From Ferroplasma acidarmanus Fer1 (GTDB taxonomy: Archaea > Thermoplasmatota > Thermoplasmata > Thermoplasmatales > Thermoplasmataceae), in assembly GCF_000152265.2 (NCBI RefSeq), contig NC_021592.1:1736001-1800000 (forward strand): a stretch of 64,000 nucleotides of DNA. The letters run 5' to 3'. The notes under the pieces are model-generated. The model did not search any database, had not been told where the DNA came from, and was given only the letters and a program-made list of their open reading frames with translations. Every line of letters begins with the position of its first letter. The stretch's first letter is position 1. Positions 9,552-31,649 of this stretch are shown here, piece after piece. Made by a program: the position numbers and the translations under genes.

Positions 9552-9557
9552 TAGCAA

Positions 9558-9743
9558 TTATTCATCGTATCTGAACTTTATCAATTTTAAATCTTTCATA
9601 TAATTTTTCATTATATATTTTGGAAGGTCCAACCCAGCTTCCTGGGCTTTCAGGCATAAATCTACAGTTTCGTCATGTGTAAGAATTACAGACCTCCCTG
9701 ATCTGTTGTATAAAATCATGTATCCCAGATCCTCACAAATCAT
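9558..9743 (-). CDS. Small hypothetical protein
   Basis: 61 residues, soluble, not recognised. The composition is normal for a protein, with regular helix-forming segments (HDETVDLCLKAQEAGLDLPKYIMKN). Upstream on the minus strand is an AT-rich TATA-like stretch (about 9750-9765). It is convergent with the CoA-transferase, whose stop is 6 bp away. Plausible but unproven. Confidence 0.45.
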   Translation of the reverse strand: MICEDLGYMILYNRSGRSVILTHDETVDLCLKAQEAGLDLPKYIMKNYMKDLKLIKFRYDE

Positions 9744-9823
9744 GTTTCTATATAATATTTAAGGATTAGAATATTTGGATTAAACTATTGTAGATAGAAT
9801 AATTGTGCAGGAAATGTTGTTCC

Positions 9824-9955
9824 ATGAAAAACGTAACTCTTATAATAAGACGTAAACCGGAAGAATTCTGTATTTATGGCAATAGGGCTGTAACTTTATT
9901 TGAGATTACACGCAGGCAAACTATTTTCCAGTTGAAGCATTTAACCAAATTTTAA
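9824..9955 (+). CDS. Possible very small ORF
   Basis: ATG to TAA encoding 43 residues, beginning MKNVTLIIRRKPEEFC. No ribosome binding site and no recognised family. It sits in the gap before the aldo-keto reductase and may be chance or a gene remnant. Confidence 0.15.
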   Translation: MKNVTLIIRRKPEEFCIYGNRAVTLFEITRRQTIFQLKHLTKF

Positions 9956-9978
9956 ATATAAAATTATGTTGTTATATT

Positions 9979-10941
9979 ATGGAGTATACTAAATTAGGAT
10001 ATACAGATTTAAAAGTGTCCCGGCTTTGCCTTGGCGGGATGTCATTTGGCAGTTCAAAATGGATGGCTGATCCAGAAACATCAGGGAAAATAATTAAAAA
10101 AGCCATAGATTACGGCATTAATTTTATTGATACGGCCAATATATATTCATCCGGTGAATCTGAGAAAATCATAGGGGAAGCTATTACAGGTTACAGGCCC
10201 CAGCTTGTTTTGAGTACGAAAGGCGGTGGAAAGGTAAATGATTTCACACAGGGATTCAGCAGGGCAATTTTATTCAATGAAATGAAAAACAGCCTTAAGA
10301 ATCTCAGAACAGATTATATAGATATTTATTTCCTGCATACTATATTTGATAATGTAGATTTCAGGGATACGGTACATACACTATCCTCTTTTATTTCATC
10401 CGGTAAAGCCGGATATATAGGGCTTAGCAATTTTATGGGATACCAGCTTGCTGAATTTTCAACAATAATGGAAATGCAGGAGAATATAAAACCTGCAATA
10501 CTACAGAACCATTATAATGCAGTTTACAGGGAAGACGAGAGGGATGCTATACCATTCTGTGAAAAACATGGAATTGCATACTCTCCATTCTCGCCTATAG
10601 CTGCCGGATTCCTCTCAGGGAAATATAAGAGAGGATTAGAGAATGAAACGGTACGGACAAAAACATATCCAGTTATGAAAGAACGGTATTTCAGTGATTC
10701 GGATTTTGATATACTTGAGAGTGTAGAGGATATAGCAAAGAAAAAAGGGGTAAAAGTGCCACAACTTGCCCTTGCATACGTGCTAAATAAAGGATTCATC
10801 CCTGTCATAGGGGCTACAAAGCCAGAATACCTGGAAGATGATATAGCTGCACTGGATGTTAAACTAGACAGGGAAGAAATGGAGGCTATAGACAGGAATT
10901 ATAAACCGCATAAAATTGTAAAAGGAACTGCCGGTTATTAG
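9979..10941 (+). CDS. Aldo/keto reductase
   Basis: 320 residues, full length for a TIM-barrel aldo-keto reductase that uses NADPH to reduce aldehydes or ketones. The tetrad is visible: Asp51 and Tyr56 (DTANIYSSGESE), Lys81 (STKGGG) and His120 (FLHTIFD). The cofactor-binding GLSNFMGYQ and the C-terminal PVIGATKPEYLEDD follow. The LSGKYK loop groups it with AKR11/12-like general stress or sugar-alcohol reductases. The substrate cannot be fixed from sequence. Upstream TATA-like TTTAAATATAAAATTA lies about 25 bp before the ATG, so the transcript is probably near-leaderless. Confidence 0.9.
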   Translation: MEYTKLGYTDLKVSRLCLGGMSFGSSKWMADPETSGKIIKKAIDYGINFIDTANIYSSGESEKIIGEAITGYRPQLVLSTKGGGKVNDFTQGFSRAILFNEMKNSLKNLRTDYIDIYFLHTIFDNVDFRDTVHTLSSFISSGKAGYIGLSNFMGYQLAEFSTIMEMQENIKPAILQNHYNAVYREDERDAIPFCEKHGIAYSPFSPIAAGFLSGKYKRGLENETVRTKTYPVMKERYFSDSDFDILESVEDIAKKKGVKVPQLALAYVLNKGFIPVIGATKPEYLEDDIAALDVKLDREEMEAIDRNYKPHKIVKGTAGY

Positions 10942-10943
10942 AT

Positions 10944-12107
10944 CTACCTATTACTGTCTTTTATAGCATCATTGAAAAGCTCTATCAGTTCTTTATCAAC
11001 AACGTCAGCATCAAACATTTTACTGGCTATTTCGCGCCTTAGCATTTTTTCCCTGTAAAAATCAGTTTTGCTTCTTTCTTTAATTATTTTTATCCTTTCT
11101 ATCTCCTTAATAAAATTTTTTGGATTTCTAGGTACAGCAACTCCAAAAATATTGTCCTGCCTTACAATGTACCTAGGGCCCATGGAAGTGGATGAAACTA
11201 TAAGGTAAAGCCCGGACGCCAGCCCTTCTATGGCAGAAATAGATAAAGACTCATTTATTGATGGGACAATCATCACATCGCTCTCCGCAAGGAGTTTTAT
11301 TTTCTCTTCAGAAGAAACGTATCCATGGATTATAGTATTCTGATTTTTCATCTGCTGGAGTTTTTCCATATAAGGCCCTTTGCCTATAATATGAAGATTT
11401 ATGTCTGCCTTCTTTTCAAGCTCGAGCAACATATCAACCCCTTTACTTTCCATCAGGCGGCCAAGGTAAACTACAGAAAAATTATCGTTATCCAGGCATT
11501 TATAGCCATTGAATTTGACATTATTGTACGGAATTTCCCTTATATATGATCGATCGCATTTTATTTTTTCATAGTACTGTGCCTGGTACTTATTCTGTAC
11601 ATGGATGTAAAATTTCATTCTGTTTTTTAAAAGCTTATGGAATATCATGGTCGTAAGTATTTTAGAATATGCTTTGGATGCAAAACCATACATATCAAGA
11701 ACTTCAAAGTATGTTCCATGATTTCCAAGTACAACTGTTTTACCTTCTTTCATTAATCTGTAACCCACATTTCTGAAAAGTAAAGTTGGTGAAACAAAAT
11801 AATAAACATCGAAATCCTTAATTTTTTCATATATGCGATTATAGGTATATATCCCTATAAGCCCCATAGATAATATATGGGAGATTTTCAAAACAGGGCC
11901 GGTTGCCATTATGTCAAAAGTAAAAGCATCAGGAACATAATTGAATGAATACTTGCCCGCTTTTGTTTCATACCCTTTCGGGATTCCTGCACCGAATAGG
12001 GTTACATCATATCCCTGCCTCACAAACAACTCTGCAATATCACGGGCATTTGCCTCGCCACCGCCTGCGAATTCAAGATTCATCGATCCTACTATAGCTA
12101 ATCTCAA
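10944..12107 (-). CDS. Glycosyltransferase family 4
   Basis: 387 residues with the GT-B fold. The N-terminal acceptor domain has GGGEANARDIAELFVRQGYDVTLFG. The C-terminal donor domain starts VVYLGRLMESKGVDMLLELE, then LHIIGKGPYMEKLQ, IIHGYVSSEEK and ESDVMIVPSINESLSISAIEGLASG with the conserved ExxxxxxIEG-type donor-binding Glu. It is probably membrane-associated and adds a sugar to a lipid-linked or protein-linked glycan. It is convergent with the aldo-keto reductase (2 bp gap) and divergent from another GT4, so it sits in a dispersed surface-glycan cluster. Confidence 0.9.
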   Translation of the reverse strand: MRLAIVGSMNLEFAGGGEANARDIAELFVRQGYDVTLFGAGIPKGYETKAGKYSFNYVPDAFTFDIMATGPVLKISHILSMGLIGIYTYNRIYEKIKDFDVYYFVSPTLLFRNVGYRLMKEGKTVVLGNHGTYFEVLDMYGFASKAYSKILTTMIFHKLLKNRMKFYIHVQNKYQAQYYEKIKCDRSYIREIPYNNVKFNGYKCLDNDNFSVVYLGRLMESKGVDMLLELEKKADINLHIIGKGPYMEKLQQMKNQNTIIHGYVSSEEKIKLLAESDVMIVPSINESLSISAIEGLASGLYLIVSSTSMGPRYIVRQDNIFGVAVPRNPKNFIKEIERIKIIKERSKTDFYREKMLRREIASKMFDADVVDKELIELFNDAIKDSNR

Positions 12108-12290
12108 CTGTAAACAGGGATGTAATTAATGAATTATATTTTAAATATTCTATGTTCTGAACTGCAAGTATTCAGAATAAATAACCATTATCTACTTTAT
12201 AAGTGAAAAACCAGCCATAGTTTATTCAGGTTAACTCTCCACGTCCCTTTAATAGGACTATTTTATATATTGGGATTAAATGAAAGTCAT

Positions 12291-13421
12291 ATGGAAAAGA
12301 AGAAAACATTAGATTACCTGTTTATTACATGGGGAAAACCATTTAGCAGTTCCTCAGGCGCTGTAAATAAGCAGATTTATTCCATAACAAATTCACTTGC
12401 CAGAGACGGAGCGACCGTGGGTATACTTTATATGTCTTACTCATATATTTCAAATTTATATGGATTTTCTAAAAAAAATAGCAGGATGGATATATTTAAA
12501 GGTATAGCTGGCAGGATCCTTTATAGTAAAATTTTAGGAAAGATATACTTAAATATATTGTGGAGGCATAGTGAAGTCTTGTTTGATGATAGAATCCATT
12601 TTTTCCTTTCAAATTATAAACTCCCGGCATTGCAGATAAAGAGGCTGGTCACAAGTTACTGGTGGGGCGTACTGGTTCCAGATAAAAGAAACATGGTAGA
12701 AAACATTTATTTTTTGCTCTATCATGATTATTCAGTTGATATACAGAATAGTAATCCTGAAAATTTAAAATATCTCTCAAAGGCCTACAGTATCAGTAGA
12801 AAAATCGCAGTAAATCCCTTAATTAATAAGAATTTTGACGAGAGCCTTCCACTGGTTAAAGAGGGAATAAATCTTGATGAATATAAATCCAGTACAGATT
12901 TTGATAGCAAAGATAAGCATCTTATGCTGGTTCCATTGCGGCTGAACCCGGCAAAAGGAGCTAAGTATGCAATAGACGCTTTAAAGCTAATACATAATAA
13001 ATACCCGGATATTTCTATAAGTGCCTTCGGTGATTATAATTTGCCATTACCAGAATACATACAGTTTCACTACAATATAAACCAGAAAAGCCTCAAAAAA
13101 CTTTACGGTGATGCAACATTCTTTATTCTGCCTTCCATTGAAGAAGGAATCCCAGAACCACTTATTGAGGCCATGGTTTCTGGATGTGTAGCCATATCAA
13201 CTGCCTGTGGTGGGCCGGAAACTGTTATCGTACATGGCCAGAATGGCTTCCTGGTACCAATAAAAGATCCAGAGAAAATATTTTTGCAATTTGCCAAATT
13301 GATGGAGGAGCGCATTGACTTAAAAAGGATTTCGGAATCAGCGAAAGCTACTGCAATGGAATATGATATTAATAAAACATATACAGAATTTCTTGACGCA
13401 ATAAAATTCTATGAAAGTTAG
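12291..13421 (+). CDS. Glycosyltransferase family 4
   Basis: 376 residues from ATG 12291. An upstream in-frame TTG at 12270 is possible but less likely. The C-terminal GT-B domain shows LMLVPLRLNPAKGAKYAIDAL, ISAFGDYN, FFILPSIEEGIPEPLIEAMVSGC (EGxPxPxxEA donor motif) and NGFLVPIKDPEKI. The N-terminal domain is recognisable from FITWGKPFSSSSGAVNKQIY. Its role is sugar transfer in surface glycan synthesis, with unknown donor. It is divergently transcribed from the GT4 at 10944. Confidence 0.85.
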   Translation: MEKKKTLDYLFITWGKPFSSSSGAVNKQIYSITNSLARDGATVGILYMSYSYISNLYGFSKKNSRMDIFKGIAGRILYSKILGKIYLNILWRHSEVLFDDRIHFFLSNYKLPALQIKRLVTSYWWGVLVPDKRNMVENIYFLLYHDYSVDIQNSNPENLKYLSKAYSISRKIAVNPLINKNFDESLPLVKEGINLDEYKSSTDFDSKDKHLMLVPLRLNPAKGAKYAIDALKLIHNKYPDISISAFGDYNLPLPEYIQFHYNINQKSLKKLYGDATFFILPSIEEGIPEPLIEAMVSGCVAISTACGGPETVIVHGQNGFLVPIKDPEKIFLQFAKLMEERIDLKRISESAKATAMEYDINKTYTEFLDAIKFYES

Positions 13422-22213: not shown

Positions 22214-22672
22214 ATGGCAGGCAAAAGAAAAGCTGTTTTTGTTGACAGGGATGGTACCCTGAATTATGATACTGGATATACACATAAATTATCTGACCTC
22301 AAAATTTATGATGATATAATTCCCATTTTAAAAGAATATTACGATCAAAATTATATTATCATAGTAGTAACAAACCAATCAGGTATTGGCAGGGAGTATT
22401 ATACTGTAGAAGACATGGAAGCGTTCAATAATAAACTGGCAGAGGAATTAATGAAATATGGCGTTAAAATAGAAGAGTTCTTTTATTGCCCGCACCTTCC
22501 TGATCAGGGATGCAAATGCAGGAAACCCGGAACCGGAATGATAGAGGAAGCAGCAAAAAAATATAATATTGATATTAAAAATTCTGTTGTAATAGGAGAC
22601 AGAACAAGTGTTGATGGTACGATGGCGAGAAAACTGGGGATAAAATTTATTAAAGTCCACGGATACGATTAA
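22214..22672 (+). CDS. gmhB: D-glycero-D-manno-heptose 1,7-bisphosphate phosphatase (GmhB-type HAD)
   Basis: 152 residues, a compact HAD phosphatase without cap. Nucleophile and acid are in DRDGTLN (Asp11, Asp13), motif II is in VVTNQSGIGR, and the final Asp lies in IGDR (129). A Zn loop specific to GmhB/HisB-N is complete: Cys92, His94, Cys100, Cys102 (CPHLPDQGCKCRKP). With the HddA-like kinase at 41464 it would form the middle steps of GDP-D-glycero-D-manno-heptose synthesis. Histidinol-phosphatase is the alternative. It overlaps the convergent gene by 4 bp. Confidence 0.85.
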   Translation: MAGKRKAVFVDRDGTLNYDTGYTHKLSDLKIYDDIIPILKEYYDQNYIIIVVTNQSGIGREYYTVEDMEAFNNKLAEELMKYGVKIEEFFYCPHLPDQGCKCRKPGTGMIEEAAKKYNIDIKNSVVIGDRTSVDGTMARKLGIKFIKVHGYD

Positions 22673-23949
22673 TTTTTAATAATTTCAAATCCGTTGCCTT
22701 CACTTTCATTCGAGGCTTTAAGAATATAATCCGTGTAAAGTCTTAAAGCATCCTGGTTCCCATCCTTAAGGAATATTATGCCCATGCCATTGCTTCCGGC
22801 ATCATAATACTTGAAAAAACTGCCCCATAGTTCATTTTCATAAGCCGGTGACCCCCCGGGCGATAGTGGTACAATATCATTAGCCGAGTTAATTACTATC
22901 AATGGATTGCGAAGTGATTCGGTTCCAGTGACTATTGCAGCCCACAGTTTAGAGGCAAGGGCAGCCGCATCAGCAGCTGAATCTACAATCCTCTGATCGT
23001 AATATTCCTGGCTGATATCAAATCTTTTAATGCTGAAGCTAGAGTTTCCGTTTATTATACTTTTGAACGGGTCGAACTTTCCGGTATTCAGTATTGCTAT
23101 TTCCCGGCCGGTTTTTTCTGCACTTGACATTATTTTTGCAGCCAGGCCAATTTTGCCGTCACCAGCAGGTCCTGTAATCAGTGTTGTTTTTTCTCCACCT
23201 GCTATAGCATTAATTGTTTCTGTCTTTGTATCCAGTATCATTCCTGTAGGTGATTCATCACGCTGAAAATCTATAAATTCCTGTGCTGTCTGCTGTGGTG
23301 CCGCGAGTTTGGGCTCTTTCAAGCTGTAATCCAGTTCCAGGAAATCTTCAATTTTTGCCTTATAGGTGTAGAGTATTTTTTTGTTTCCAACAAGAAGGGG
23401 TTTCCTAAAATTCCCGGAATACAGGCTATATTTTTTCCCCTTTATCTCTTTCCAGTTAATGTCAGCCCTGATGCAATCCTGAATCTTTCCAAGGATAACA
23501 TTGTTTAAATCTTCATCTGGCCTTTTTTTCATATATTTGTCATTTCGTTGCATGAAGATTATCTTCACAAGGTATTTATCCTCCTGGAGAACATACTGGT
23601 CTTTATCCGGTTTCCTATTGTAATACAGAAACCAGAACATCATACCCTGCCCATCAGCAAGTTTTTCAATCACATCCTTTATGTTGGTAAATTCAACCCC
23701 CGTATCATAATAATCTTTTTCCTTCCTGCTTTCAGACACAAAATAATGATTCATCACAGGCATGGCATCAATAGGGTCAAGCTCAACAGATTGTTTTATA
23801 AATGAATATCTGGTGTTTGTGTTTAAAAATATATGAATACGATTTTCTTTATTAAAATAGAATAGGCCAAATTTCTGCCCCATAATACTATAAAGCTTCT
23901 TATTATACACGGAATCTGCAGAACCGTTAATTACTTCATACCATGCCAT
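22669..23949 (-). CDS. Unknown protein with degenerate P-loop-like motif
   Basis: 426 residues, not recognised. The N-terminal half (1-220) is rich in aromatic and charged residues. The C-terminal half looks like a P-loop NTPase: LITGPAGDGKIGLA at about residues 250-263 resembles Walker A, but the Ser/Thr after Lys is Ile. A hydrophobic strand NPLIVINSAND at about 350 could be a Walker-B equivalent lacking Asp-Glu. It is divergent from the Hsp70 gene across a 124-bp shared promoter region, which suggests a functional link. No membrane segments. Confidence 0.7.
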   Translation of the reverse strand: MAWYEVINGSADSVYNKKLYSIMGQKFGLFYFNKENRIHIFLNTNTRYSFIKQSVELDPIDAMPVMNHYFVSESRKEKDYYDTGVEFTNIKDVIEKLADGQGMMFWFLYYNRKPDKDQYVLQEDKYLVKIIFMQRNDKYMKKRPDEDLNNVILGKIQDCIRADINWKEIKGKKYSLYSGNFRKPLLVGNKKILYTYKAKIEDFLELDYSLKEPKLAAPQQTAQEFIDFQRDESPTGMILDTKTETINAIAGGEKTTLITGPAGDGKIGLAAKIMSSAEKTGREIAILNTGKFDPFKSIINGNSSFSIKRFDISQEYYDQRIVDSAADAAALASKLWAAIVTGTESLRNPLIVINSANDIVPLSPGGSPAYENELWGSFFKYYDAGSNGMGIIFLKDGNQDALRLYTDYILKASNESEGNGFEIIKN

Positions 23950-24017
23950 TTAAATGCACAATACTTATAATATGTAATTGTACTTAAATTTTGTCATCCA
24001 TCTGTCATACAACAATC

Positions 24018-24027
24018 TTTATAAAAG
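24018..24027 (+). promoter_or_regulatory. TATA-box candidate of the Hsp70 gene
   Basis: TTTATAAAAG lies about 50 bp upstream of the ATG in the 124-bp divergent intergenic space shared with the minus-strand gene. AAAGGTG at 24061-24067 is a ribosome-binding-site candidate for the same gene. Confidence 0.4.
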
Positions 24028-24073
24028 CATATATTATTAATCTCTATTTATGTATAATATAAAGGTGTTTTAA

Positions 24074-25771
24074 ATGTTTTCCATTGGAATTGATCTTGGC
24101 ACCAGCAATACATCAGCAGCTGTAGCCCTAGTTACCGGCGGAGAATATAAAACCATTGCAATTCCACTATCCGGTAAGAAAACTGGAAGTTCCCTGAAAA
24201 GTTCTATAACATTTGGCGGGTCAGATATAATGTTTACAGGAGCCGATGCCGACAGGATGCTCAAGAAATACCCAGGTGGAAACGTTTCTGGTTTTAAAAC
24301 AAGAATGGGAAGCGAGTACCTGTATCGTACAGGGGAAAAATTCCATTCACCCGTAGAACTGAGTGCAATTATTCTTGCAAGGGTCAAAAACATTGCTGAA
24401 GAATATATGCATGACAGGGTAAAAGATGCTGTAATAGCTGTACCGGCTTATTTCAACAATAATCAGAGGAACGCCACCCGTGAAGCCGCAGCAATAGCCG
24501 GAATAAAGGTAAAACAATTTGTCAGCGAACCTGCTGCAGTAGCAATATCTTACTGGAATCGTGCATCAAAGGCAGAGGCAAAAAATATACTGGTTTTTGA
24601 TATGGGTTCAGGAACAACAGATGTGAGCATTGTAAGGGCACAGGGGAAGGATTTCAGGGTTATTGCAACATCCGGAAACACGGGACTCGGTGGTACCGAT
24701 ATGGATAGGCGTATAGAGGAAATGATGAAATCTTTTCTCCGGATTAATGGTATATCCCCATATCCTCCAGACCTTAGAAAAGACGCAGAAAAATTGAAAA
24801 TTTACCTCTCAAATCATGAAACAGGGGATTCACTGTTAGGGAGTACAAAAATTAAATACACTATGGATTCAAAACAGCTTGATAGCATAGTATCTGACAT
24901 GTTACCTGAAATTTACAGATGCATAGATACAGCCATATTGAATTCAGGCATAAAGAGAAATGAACTGGACACAGTTATAATTACAGGAGGCCCTACTAAA
25001 ATTCCTTTTTTATTTCATTCCATTGAAAACTATCTTTCCACCAGGGCGGTAAAACAGGGGAAGTTTGACACAGCTGTGTCTACAGGGGCAGCAATACTTG
25101 CCTCAGGATTTATCCATATGGGTACCGGTGAGATATCTAAAATTAAGGTTAGTGATGTTGTGCCCATATCACTGGGCAGTGTCACACGCAACGATATTGT
25201 AGTTACCATGATACCTGCAAATACGCCGGTGCCCTGTAAAGCAACAAGACCCTTTACCACGATAAGGGACTACCAGAGCGAAATAGAGGTAAAGGTAGTC
25301 CAGGGCGAACGGCCACTTGGCACAGATAATATTGTGCTAGGGCATTTTACACTTTCAGGCATAAAACCGGCACCCAGGGGGGAAGTTGCTATTGATGTGA
25401 CATACAGTGTTGATAAAAATGGCATACTGACAGTCTCCGCCAGGGACAATGATACCGCGGCAATAAAAGAGATTAAGATAAGTGAGACTATGCAGCACAG
25501 CCAGGAAGAAATAAAAGAAATGAAGGAAGCGGTAAAGAAATATTTTAAAGTAGATTCAGAGCGGAAGAAGATGGCAGAAATTATGAACAGATCAGAGCAG
25601 CTTCTGCACGAATTAAAAGGCATAGCAAATAAGCAACTTTCAACTGAAACAAAATACTATAATATCAATACAGATATATTAATGGTAAGCAGAGCTATTA
25701 AAAATAATAATATTAAACTTCTATCCCAGTTATTAACAAAAACGGATAAAGAATATTCATTGAAAAATTGA
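24074..25771 (+). CDS. Divergent Hsp70-family chaperone
   Basis: 565 residues. The ATPase domain is intact: phosphate-1 loop GIDLGTSNTS (residues 5-14), AVPAYFNNNQRNATREAA, phosphate-2 loop FDMGSGTTDVSIV (about 176-188) and adenosine motif IITGGPTKIPF. A substrate-binding beta domain follows (TRPFTTIRDYQSEIEVKVVQGE, DKNGILTVSARD). The lid is short, ending at 565 rather than about 610-640, without a Gly-rich tail. No grpE or dnaJ is adjacent, so this is probably a specialised Hsp70 and not the housekeeping DnaK. The divergent neighbour is a candidate partner. Confidence 0.85.
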   Translation: MFSIGIDLGTSNTSAAVALVTGGEYKTIAIPLSGKKTGSSLKSSITFGGSDIMFTGADADRMLKKYPGGNVSGFKTRMGSEYLYRTGEKFHSPVELSAIILARVKNIAEEYMHDRVKDAVIAVPAYFNNNQRNATREAAAIAGIKVKQFVSEPAAVAISYWNRASKAEAKNILVFDMGSGTTDVSIVRAQGKDFRVIATSGNTGLGGTDMDRRIEEMMKSFLRINGISPYPPDLRKDAEKLKIYLSNHETGDSLLGSTKIKYTMDSKQLDSIVSDMLPEIYRCIDTAILNSGIKRNELDTVIITGGPTKIPFLFHSIENYLSTRAVKQGKFDTAVSTGAAILASGFIHMGTGEISKIKVSDVVPISLGSVTRNDIVVTMIPANTPVPCKATRPFTTIRDYQSEIEVKVVQGERPLGTDNIVLGHFTLSGIKPAPRGEVAIDVTYSVDKNGILTVSARDNDTAAIKEIKISETMQHSQEEIKEMKEAVKKYFKVDSERKKMAEIMNRSEQLLHELKGIANKQLSTETKYYNINTDILMVSRAIKNNNIKLLSQLLTKTDKEYSLKN

Positions 25772-28647: not shown

Positions 28648-30138
28648 TTATCCAAATATTTTCCTGTATAAATCCATTCCATAACCTGTTATTGACGGGC
28701 TTCCATCAACTATTCTATATGTATGTTCACCGTTATCCGCCCGTTCCGCTATTAAGAATACTGAACTCTCGTTATTCTGCTCCATCATTGCCGAAGCAAA
28801 TTCAAAGAGATGTGACACAAAGAATATTTTTATTCCACTTTCCAGCAAAGCCTTTGTAATTCCCATTGCCACTTCTGCACCTTCACGTGTGTTGGTCGAT
28901 GAAAATGACTCATTAAACAGTATCAAACTATTTCTTCTAATGTGATCGGCAATAAGATTCATTGTTGACAATTCATCATCAAATTTTCCCCTTTCCATTG
29001 TTTTGTCCTCTTCATGCTTGAAATGTGTAAATATACCGGAAACCACGCTTCCAGAATAGCTTTCAGCTGCAACAAACATTCCTGCCTGCATCATCAACTG
29101 TGCCTGCCCTATACTCCTCAAAAAGGTTGATTTTCCTCCACGATTGGTTCCTGTTATTACAAATAAATTCTTTCCATCTCCATCCAGGTTGTTAGGAACA
29201 ATTTTAGAATTCGTAGTAAGCATGAGCCCCAGATCGTACAATCCTGAAAATTCAAGTGCAGTGCTTTCTGTTTCCTGAGGTTCAGGAAAACAGTATTGGC
29301 CGGATCTGGATTTTAAATGTTCCAGAAGGTTAATTGATGATATATAGAACCCAATTTCACACCTTAACTCTTTAAAAAATTCCATGCAATTCTGGGCAGA
29401 CCTTTTCAAAACCATTGCCGTTTTTTTCACACCCCTGTTCCTTATATCTGTTATTTCTTCTCCACCGCTAATATCCCGCTCTGGAAGTGTATATGTATAA
29501 TGCTGCCCGATTTTATCACCAACGATCTGTTTGATATTCTTTTTTCCCGTATCCGGTTTATGGAGTATGTAATCTTTCCCTTCGTTGCCCATTCCCAGAG
29601 ATACGCTCATTGTTATGCCGTCTTTAAACTGCAGCCTTTCAAGATTCTCCAGTATTGTTGCCATATACTCCGGGCCAAATGTATCAGATACAGTACTGTA
29701 AAATTTCTTTAATCCCGTAGATTTTGCTTCCCCAATCATATTGCCTATTATTTCCCTGATCTCAGCAATCTTTTCTGAAAACAGTTTTATTATTCCTATA
29801 GATATCTGCATGGACAGTGAAGCGTTATCGCTGAACCAGAAAAATTGCTTCTGTGCCTCTGTTATGAATGAAACGGTGATGTTATATATTTTATCTGCGT
29901 AATCACGGTGTTCTATAAAATCCTGCATTACCTGTTGCCTGTACTTTATATTTTCTATGGAATTCAGGCTATTGAGAATGAACGTGGTTGAATTTTTCAG
30001 GAGAAATTGATCGCCGGAAGACATTGCATTTAATATTGGATTTAACCCGAGGTCGCCTATTAGTGAATCGCTATTCCATGGCAAATCCTCTTTATATCTG
30101 TCAACTCCATCACTGTCAAGCAAATATGTTTTTATCAT
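28648..30138 (-). CDS. MutS-like ATPase, second of a coupled pair
   Basis: 496 residues with only the MutS core/lever and ATPase domains. The N-terminal mismatch-recognition domain (with Phe-x-Glu) is absent. Walker A GTNRGGKS is at 330-337, THFKHEED follows, and SLILFNESFSSTN stands at the Walker-B/signature position, where MutS has DE. Here it is Asn409-Glu410. A C-terminal SHLFEFA matches the MutS H-loop. Its ATG overlaps the stop of the upstream paralogue (ATGA) with a GGGAGGA site before it, so the two are made together and may form a heterodimer. The substrate (DNA junction, RNA or ribosome) is unknown. Confidence 0.85.
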   Translation of the reverse strand: MIKTYLLDSDGVDRYKEDLPWNSDSLIGDLGLNPILNAMSSGDQFLLKNSTTFILNSLNSIENIKYRQQVMQDFIEHRDYADKIYNITVSFITEAQKQFFWFSDNASLSMQISIGIIKLFSEKIAEIREIIGNMIGEAKSTGLKKFYSTVSDTFGPEYMATILENLERLQFKDGITMSVSLGMGNEGKDYILHKPDTGKKNIKQIVGDKIGQHYTYTLPERDISGGEEITDIRNRGVKKTAMVLKRSAQNCMEFFKELRCEIGFYISSINLLEHLKSRSGQYCFPEPQETESTALEFSGLYDLGLMLTTNSKIVPNNLDGDGKNLFVITGTNRGGKSTFLRSIGQAQLMMQAGMFVAAESYSGSVVSGIFTHFKHEEDKTMERGKFDDELSTMNLIADHIRRNSLILFNESFSSTNTREGAEVAMGITKALLESGIKIFFVSHLFEFASAMMEQNNESSVFLIAERADNGEHTYRIVDGSPSITGYGMDLYRKIFG

Positions 30139-31649
30139 GATATCCTCCCTTTCAATATTTCATATGTAAGGTTATATTTCCTCGCAAGTGCCATTGCATA
30201 TGCCATACCGTTAGATTTCATTGGAAGAACCTTATATGTCCTTTTCTCAGGGTATTTCCTGTCAACCTGGCTTACGTAGCTAACCACTCCGGGCAAATCA
30301 GACAATTCATGAATAAAGGTGACATACATGCAAATAGATTTCATTTTCTTTATTTTATCTATTATATTCCTGCCTATTTCAATTCCATCCTTAAGCGTGG
30401 TTGAACTCAACATTTCATTAATAATAATGAGGCTCCTTTCCGTTGCCTTTTCAAGTATGCCATGTAATCTTTCCAGTTCCTCTTCAAGCCTGCCCATATT
30501 ATTTTCTGGATTTTCAGATATTTCAAAATGTGAAAATATATTATCAACATGAAGTATAGTTGCCTCTTTCCCGGGAACCGGACATCCCAGCAGGGCAAGA
30601 TAATGTAACTGCCCGAATGACCTGGCAAATGTTGTTTTACCACCATTATTTGGCCCGGTAACTATAATCACGGATGAATTTCTATTTACAATAATATTGT
30701 TAGTAACAGGAATTTGCTTGCGTTCATTAAGTTTGGCAGCAAGTGCAAGATCAAAAAATTCCAGGCAATATATTCTATCCGTTTCACCTTTAATCTCCGG
30801 TATGCAGAACTGCAATCCGGATTCCTCAAGTGGAGTTATATACTGTAAATACTTCAAATAAAAAAAGATTTCATGAAGAAATCTGGAAATTACAGGATCC
30901 ATGAAATTTAACCTTCTTTTATAAAAGTCCTTTAATCTATTGAATTGCTCTGGATAGAATTTTGCCACCAGTTCCACTACAGCAGCTTCTACATGGCCAA
31001 AACCCGGAGTAGAATCATATCCCGGGATTGTTTCATCCTCATCCAGGAACCTTGAAAATGCCTCTTTAACCTCAGATGCATAATCTTTCGAATCCCGGTC
31101 CTCCCTTACAGTTATTTTCACGCCTTTGATATTTATGAGATATCTTATTGATGATAGTTCCTCCTCAAGTTGTTCTGCGTCATTTTTAAGTGATTTAAAT
31201 TCATCCGAGGCAACATAAGCATCCAGATAGTTTATGAACCCGGTGAATCCTCTTGATTTTGCTCCTGCTTTTCGCATATTGTCTAACATATTTTCAATTG
31301 ATCGGGAATACATATAAACGGAGTCCAGTAACCACCGTTCACGCTGCAGGTCATAAAGATCTTTTAACCTTTTGATATTATAAAATATCTGTGACCCTGT
31401 GCCAGCAAATTGTGTAATAATCCTGTATATCTCTGGATTTTCCAGGTCTTTAAAGATTTCCTGCCTGTAGAAAATGTCATCAATGTTCCTCAATGGCATG
31501 TAGAGGAGCCTTTCCAGTTCATCATTCCGGGTATTTCCCATGAATCCTGAAAAAATATTTCTCAAAGAAAAATCGTCAAATATTGTATTATTCCTGTCCA
31601 GCTCCTGCAGATTTATGGAACTACTGAATGTTATGCTTTTAAACTCCAT
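30135..31649 (-). CDS. MutS-like ATPase, first of a coupled pair
   Basis: 504 residues, paralogous to the downstream protein and of the same reduced architecture. A helical N-terminal region covers about 1-300, with a clamp-like acidic coiled segment at about 150-170 (LKNDAEQLEEELSS). Walker A is TGPNNGGKTT (331-340), NIFSHFEISENP follows, and SLIIINEMLSSTT has Asn-Glu at the Walker-B position, as in its partner. It has a strong ribosome site, AAGGAG at 31658-31663, eight bases before ATG 31649. Members of this group are widespread but uncharacterised. Confidence 0.85.
   Translation of the reverse strand: MEFKSITFSSSINLQELDRNNTIFDDFSLRNIFSGFMGNTRNDELERLLYMPLRNIDDIFYRQEIFKDLENPEIYRIITQFAGTGSQIFYNIKRLKDLYDLQRERWLLDSVYMYSRSIENMLDNMRKAGAKSRGFTGFINYLDAYVASDEFKSLKNDAEQLEEELSSIRYLINIKGVKITVREDRDSKDYASEVKEAFSRFLDEDETIPGYDSTPGFGHVEAAVVELVAKFYPEQFNRLKDFYKRRLNFMDPVISRFLHEIFFYLKYLQYITPLEESGLQFCIPEIKGETDRIYCLEFFDLALAAKLNERKQIPVTNNIIVNRNSSVIIVTGPNNGGKTTFARSFGQLHYLALLGCPVPGKEATILHVDNIFSHFEISENPENNMGRLEEELERLHGILEKATERSLIIINEMLSSTTLKDGIEIGRNIIDKIKKMKSICMYVTFIHELSDLPGVVSYVSQVDRKYPEKRTYKVLPMKSNGMAYAMALARKYNLTYEILKGRIS

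Follow-up and report, generated by a model that had tools for sequence, protein, structure and literature searches.

HscA and the divergent Hsp110-type proteins are examples of second Hsp70s that have become specialised and have dedicated partners, and the linkers of Hsp110 also differ from the canonical linker. In general such an Hsp70 works with a J-protein, a GrpE-like factor or a defined client. Hsp70s have also been described together with NTPases in conflict systems, among them the GAP1-N2 GTPase–Hsp70–GrpE systems (PMC7159879) and the CoCoNuTs, through CnuD (PMC11090510). Here we describe a locus in Ferroplasma acidarmanus Fer1 where a second, divergent Hsp70 is encoded back to back with a 426-residue protein, PL, related to the TraG/VirD4-type ATPases of archaeal conjugative plasmids. 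It lies in a stretch of 64,000 nucleotides (positions 1,736,001 to 1,800,000 of the forward strand of contig NC_021592.1; hereafter the window) of a 1.94-Mb, single-contig genome. We consider the chances evenly balanced that the two genes form a dedicated unit, in which a remodelled Hsp70 would be joined to a non-catalytic TraG/VirD4 descendant serving as its private client or adaptor.

The preliminary description of this DNA placed an Hsp70 of 565 residues on the forward strand and a 426-residue protein on the reverse strand, with 124 bp between the start codons, and these coordinates, strands and lengths are all exact (Table 1). The identification of the Hsp70 was correct, the protein matching Pfam HSP70 (PF00012) with an E-value of 4.5e-106, as was its placement outside a grpE–dnaK–dnaJ operon. 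A canonical operon is found elsewhere in the genome (locus L067: grpE 9552–10067, dnaK 10074–11960, dnaJ 11967–13070), hence the Hsp70 of the window is a second copy and not the only DnaK of the organism. Both open reading frames are under strong purifying selection, with ratios of non-synonymous to synonymous substitution (dN/dS) of ~0.035 for PL and 0.08–0.09 for the Hsp70 when the F. acidarmanus window is compared with two near-identical relatives (G060 and G064), and their conservation identifies both as real genes.

The second Hsp70 shares with canonical DnaK its fold, all of the ATPase residues checked and the core of the substrate-binding domain. It is 36% identical to the genome's own DnaK. 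Its score of 360 bits is far below the NCBIfam DnaK equivalog cut-offs of 648 and 823. In a phylogenetic tree the Hsp70s of the pair group as a single clade (support 100/100), which has a long stem and is separate from that of the canonical DnaKs. Residue counts given here and below, together with the spacer alignment, cover 11 sequences or loci of the pair. The equivalents of the ATPase residues D8, T11, K70, E171, D194, T199 and D201 are kept in all 11 Hsp70s. The alignment to DnaK spans the beta-subdomain of the substrate-binding domain, whose conserved core includes VQGERP, and a shortened helical lid. The lid is short, as had been noted, with the protein ending ~95 residues past the beta-subdomain and the disordered tail of the genome's DnaK missing. 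HscA is a poor comparison, since the Hsp70 reaches 321 bits against an NCBIfam equivalog cut-off of 709, no Fe-S cluster genes adjoin it and its neighbours are unrelated; the long acidic insertion of Hsp110 is absent.

The differences from DnaK are pronounced at sites which serve the co-chaperones. The interdomain linker VLLLD of DnaK is replaced, the position equivalent to 390 being Lys or Arg in 10 of the 11 Hsp70s and that equivalent to 392 being polar in every one. Within the M404-G405-G406 arch, Gly405-Gly406 has become Asn-Asp throughout (11/11). R167 is lost in 6/11 and N170 in 5/11; in the F. acidarmanus clade (five sequences) the J-domain contact residues R167 and N170 are changed to Gln and Ser, respectively, and D148 is also altered, whilst the others retain most of these residues. 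Contact with the J-domain has been reported for L391, L392 and R167 (PMC13012618).

Full-length relatives of PL are present in 12 of the 117 genomes of the order, all of them Ferroplasma or Acidiplasma, and the divergent second Hsp70 is found in exactly the same 12, the remaining genomes having canonical DnaK only. Rather than lying apart in most relatives, the two genes are adjacent and divergent in every one of the 12 genomes having either, with spacers of ~100–320 bp. The flanking genes differ between the genera, with an amino-acid permease on the Hsp70 side in Acidiplasma, so that it is the pair itself which forms the conserved unit and not a syntenic block. Thus the linkage and the separate canonical DnaK uphold the earlier proposal that a specialised Hsp70, additional to DnaK, belongs to a conserved system of two genes. 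The expectation of conservation in relatives stands for Ferroplasma and Acidiplasma and fails for any other genus of the order; being restricted to 2 of the 33 genera of the order, the pair is not general to the group. A phylum-wide search of 390 genomes with a scan of genome contigs revealed no additional full-length relatives of PL, and no relative was found in viral contigs and phages. The linkage in the two genera suggests a dedicated two-protein device, in which PL may interact physically with the Hsp70. A literature search confined to open-licence papers found no description of the pair.

Two assemblies require comment. One Ferroplasma metagenome-assembled genome (MAG), G067, has neither gene and also lacks the neighbouring decarboxylase-like gene, which is found at all other Ferroplasma loci that extend far enough to include it. 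The pair region is probably missing from this assembly and, because the neighbour is missing too, absence of the pair is uninformative. In the MAG UBA567 the PL gene is split; a frameshift was rejected as the explanation, the cause being a scaffold gap (NN).

Further observations concern the surroundings of the pair Hsp70. In three Ferroplasma MAGs (L056 11626–15135, L057 11533–15057 and L058 4473–7955) the gene directly downstream of it encodes an Asn-rich, predicted surface protein of 1160–1174 residues, with a C-terminal membrane helix, a basic tail and no Pfam match. This gene overlaps that of the Hsp70 by 4 bp in L057, and is absent in F. acidarmanus and Acidiplasma. A further pair-type Hsp70, 60% identical, occurs at the start of a contig (G064:C68; L068) in a MAG listed with 5% contamination, and is probably derived from another Ferroplasma strain.

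No dedicated standard co-chaperone accompanies the second Hsp70, since genus-wide searches return one GrpE and two J-proteins from each Ferroplasma genome, with or without the pair. The exception is a fragmented Ferroplasma MAG with a third, partial J match. None of these searches gave a match at the pair locus, and neither a J-domain (PF00226) nor GrpE (PF01025) was detected in Pfam scans of all 11 members of the PL family.

The PL protein had been described as belonging to no recognised family, and indeed it reaches no cut-off in Pfam, NCBIfam, PHROGs or PADLOC, and a PDB sequence search with its profile gave no match. That description no longer holds, since PL is related, in derived form, to conjugation ATPases of the TraG/VirD4 type. 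When plasmids were searched with PL by tblastn, two matches were significant, both to 'type IV secretion system DNA-binding' proteins of two Sulfolobus tengchongensis plasmids, covering residues 3–195 (E 5e-5) and 3–107 (E 6e-4) of PL. PL relatives from two other clades, used as queries, recovered the same two proteins and nothing further. In the reverse direction, with the plasmid protein as query against the order, the pair proteins of nine Ferroplasma and Acidiplasma genomes were recovered (E 2e-10 to 2e-4), with matches running through the same N-terminal region. The S. tengchongensis protein is a member of the TraG/VirD4-like family of pNOB8, pARN3, pTC and pKEF9 type plasmids (PMC4390865). 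Deletion of traG in S. islandicus reduces conjugation and biases marker transfer (PMC9899855). An hhalign comparison of PL with TraG gave a probability of 97.4% and an E-value of 1.3e-11 over residues 2–354, and a hidden Markov model (HMM) of the PL family detected 7 of 9 TraGs at E 1.8e-12 to 3e-4, the best of 1,800 shuffled sequences reaching 0.03. By sequence, the N-terminal domain of PL is homologous to the TraG/VirD4-type ATPases of Sulfolobales conjugative plasmids; homology is established for this domain only, and descent of the whole protein from TraG is likely.

PL and the plasmid TraGs have in common an N-terminal domain of ~200 residues and, in hhalign and HMM alignments, a P-loop followed by a 'DP' motif in the same order and register. 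PL is much the smaller, with 426 residues against ~1,030, the all-alpha insertion and the C-terminal part of TraG being missing. It is also chromosomal and paired with an Hsp70, and no conjugation gene cluster was noticed among the genes beside the pair. The label 'P-loop-like' given to it earlier was right, but the motif is degenerate: it reads GDGK or GEGK followed by Ile or Leu, with the Ser/Thr after the Lys replaced in all 11 proteins, and three P-loop residues are deleted in two relatives. In the Walker B remnant, whose position was matched by eye, Asp is changed to Asn or Tyr and Glu to Ser, Thr or Asn in 11/11. As all 11 members lack both the Ser/Thr of Walker A and the acidic residues of Walker B, PL is a predicted pseudo-ATPase. 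The HerA-type ATPases of the Thermoplasmatales (a ~640-residue family), by contrast, keep an intact GKTGTGKS and VDEAQ; they were rejected as the direct parent of PL, lacking its N-terminal domain.

Table 1. Features of the PL–Hsp70 locus (positions in the window)
Feature	Position	Strand	Basis or remark
PL gene, 426 aa, probably TraG/VirD4-derived, with degenerate P-loop domain	22669..23949	-	homology to Sulfolobales plasmid TraG; dN/dS
Walker B remnant LIVINSANDIVP	22867..22902	-	placed against the TraG/HerA 'hhhDE' strand by eye from its context, without a score
Invariant 'DP' of PL (residues 293-294)	23068..23073	-	co-linear with the DPHGD/DPNGD motif of TraG/HerA
Degenerate Walker A GPAGDGKI of PL (residues 260-267)	23149..23172	-	in register with TraG GGTGAGKT
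N-terminal domain of PL (residues 1-200)	23350..23949	-	homology with residues ~7-200 of TraG from conjugative plasmids of Sulfolobales; tblastn, reverse search, hhalign, HMM against shuffles
Divergent promoter spacer, 124 bp	23950..24073	none	
17-bp block TACTTAAATTTTGTCAT (+ strand reading)	23981..23997	-	identical in 11/11 loci
TTGTCATCCATCTGTCAT, TGTCAT direct repeat, 11-bp period	23991..24008	+	adjoins/overlaps the 17-bp block; by eye
TTTATAAAA, probable TATA box of the Hsp70 gene	24018..24026	+	inference from sequence
Hsp70 gene (second copy), 565 aa, with conserved ATPase residues and a shortened lid	24074..25771	+	
Interdomain linker IKVSD of the Hsp70 (residues 357-361), replacing VLLLD of DnaK	25142..25156	+	alignment

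Several results weigh against a dedicated unit built from a dead TraG and a remodelled Hsp70. Taken alone, the C-terminal half of PL is not significantly similar to TraG (hhalign E 0.04), and its similarity to the HerA-like ATPases (hhalign E 6e-4) is weak and confined to the region around the P-loop. AlphaFold models of PL and of its N-terminal domain, built from 10-sequence alignments, have a mean predicted local distance difference test (pLDDT) score of 42 and 40, respectively, and the RecA/KaiC matches which Foldseek finds with the low-confidence PL model are weak (best E 0.013). The carbonic anhydrase matches obtained with the N-terminal-domain model were discarded as noise. Finally, the Hsp70s of Acidiplasma and of two Ferroplasma MAGs retain R167, N170 and the YFND loop, and J-protein independence can therefore be at best partial.

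Should the two proteins nonetheless constitute a dedicated unit, its operation may be envisaged as follows. Expression of Hsp70 and PL would be driven by a single, conserved divergent promoter. PL would have kept the N-terminal domain of TraG and a shrunken ATPase core as a binding platform, and would serve the Hsp70 both as its private client and as its adaptor. The Hsp70 would still hydrolyse ATP, whilst its changed linker and J-domain sites may lessen its need for the general J-protein machinery. Its cycle might then load, unload or remodel PL and its cargo, at the membrane or on DNA.

The spacer between the genes is poorly conserved among the 11 loci with the exception of the 17-bp block TACTTAAATTTTGTCAT and a TATAAT. 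The distance between the block and the PL start codon is nearly constant (~30 bp), that to the Hsp70 start varying widely, and the minus-strand reading of the block contains ACAAAATTTAAG, judged by eye to be close to an archaeal TFB recognition element (BRE)/TATA box. The block occurs as a single copy in the genome within 2 mismatches, and not upstream of the canonical grpE operon, on which grounds a heat-shock regulon acting through it was rejected. The adjoining TGTCAT direct repeat is a possible operator.

It is a distinct, if secondary, possibility that the pair reflects co-regulation only, the genes sharing a divergent promoter and responding to the same stress or signal without their products ever working together. 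A single divergent promoter with a conserved element would be expected of such an arrangement, and the retained substrate-binding core would allow the Hsp70 general clients. Against this, the linkage survives a complete change of flanks between genera, the genes are present or absent together, and those sites of the Hsp70 which serve general co-chaperones have been strongly altered.

An unlikely explanation is that PL is an anti-conjugation (exclusion) factor, a dominant-negative fragment that would poison the coupling ATPases of plasmids entering the cell, while the Hsp70 maintained it in the assembled state or set its threshold. Its resemblance to the N-terminal domain and core of TraG, a protein reported to be essential for transfer (PMC9899855), minus the catalytic residues, would suit such a role, and searches of the genome gave HerA-type ATPases but no plasmid TraG relative that is intact. 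There is also precedent in the conflict systems which pair Hsp70 or inactive NTPases with effectors (PMC7159879, PMC11090510). As in the Ferroplasma and Acidiplasma pair, the GAP1-N2 systems and CoCoNuTs tie an Hsp70 genetically to one NTPase-type partner and include inactive NTPases as components; they differ from it in using other NTPase families and in having larger operons with nucleases or effectors. Moreover, it is the Hsp70 motifs that are degenerate in CoCoNuTs (PMC11090510), but those of PL in the pair. The absence of a PADLOC match to PL, a locus outside any recognisable defence island and a distribution that is nearly universal in the two genera, not patchy, all speak against exclusion.

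It is quite unlikely that PL binds DNA and regulates the divergent promoter from which it is itself expressed, its activity being controlled by the Hsp70 in the manner of a heat-shock feedback loop. The divergent layout, the perfectly conserved 17-bp block, the TGTCAT repeats and the handling of DNA by TraG/HerA proteins are in keeping with such a loop; however, the block resembles the core BRE/TATA promoter of the PL gene itself, no DNA-binding domain is recognised in PL, and the motif is not found before the canonical grpE operon. The suggestion in the preliminary description that PL is a nucleotide-exchange factor or J-like co-chaperone is very unlikely: an Hsp70 that brought no extra GrpE or J-protein may be regulated by another factor, but nothing in the PL sequence points to nucleotide exchange, there being no J-domain, GrpE or other known exchange-factor homology, and its origin lies with a conjugation ATPase.

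Sequences resembling parts of the locus occur elsewhere. In the Ferroplasma MAG G062, copies of an insertion sequence (IS)-like transposase gene (L118, L127, L131 and L133) carry just upstream a degenerate block-like sequence, TACTTAAAT[A/C]TTGTCAT...GTCAT-like, similar to the promoter block of the pair. A second protein with the N-terminal domain of PL, of 646 residues, is encoded in an Acidiplasma-genus MAG (G042; L062 8237–14319) with a GT2 glycosyltransferase and an apparently VWA-like protein of 845 residues; by eye, the latter shares a C-terminal module with the 646-residue protein, and a search for it in 41 relatives gave no match. The C-terminal module of PL is fused to the end of a 900-residue OLD/AAA_15-type ATPase matching several defence models (L063 5521–8223 and L064 8959–11661). 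The module is also present in a 276-residue protein of G001 with the P-loop GTGKLE (L065 1761–4057), whose gene overlaps that of a GT2 glycosyltransferase, a further instance of the association between this module and GT2. Elsewhere in the window, at 28648–31649, two adjoining MutS-like ATPases of 496 and 504 residues were recognised by eye, their open reading frames overlapping by 4 bp.

The interest of the pair lies in the nature of its components. The sole conserved partner of this Hsp70 seems to be related to a DNA-translocating ATPase but catalytically dead, and on the Hsp70 side parts of the standard J-protein interface are gone. The pair thereby makes it testable whether a single non-J partner can run, or be served by, an Hsp70, and its confinement to two genera of culturable acidophiles renders it accessible to experiment. 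It also provides a second context for the archaeal TraG N-terminal domain, molecular studies of the Sulfolobus transfer apparatus being lacking (PMC9899855). In its boldest form, which we regard as a doubtful extension of the dedicated unit, the proposal would be that a conjugation ATPase, domesticated in an acidophile lineage and now enzymatically dead, has come to serve a J-protein-independent Hsp70 as its private co-factor, perhaps forming a barrier to or controller of DNA transfer. If true, this would represent a new way of running an Hsp70.

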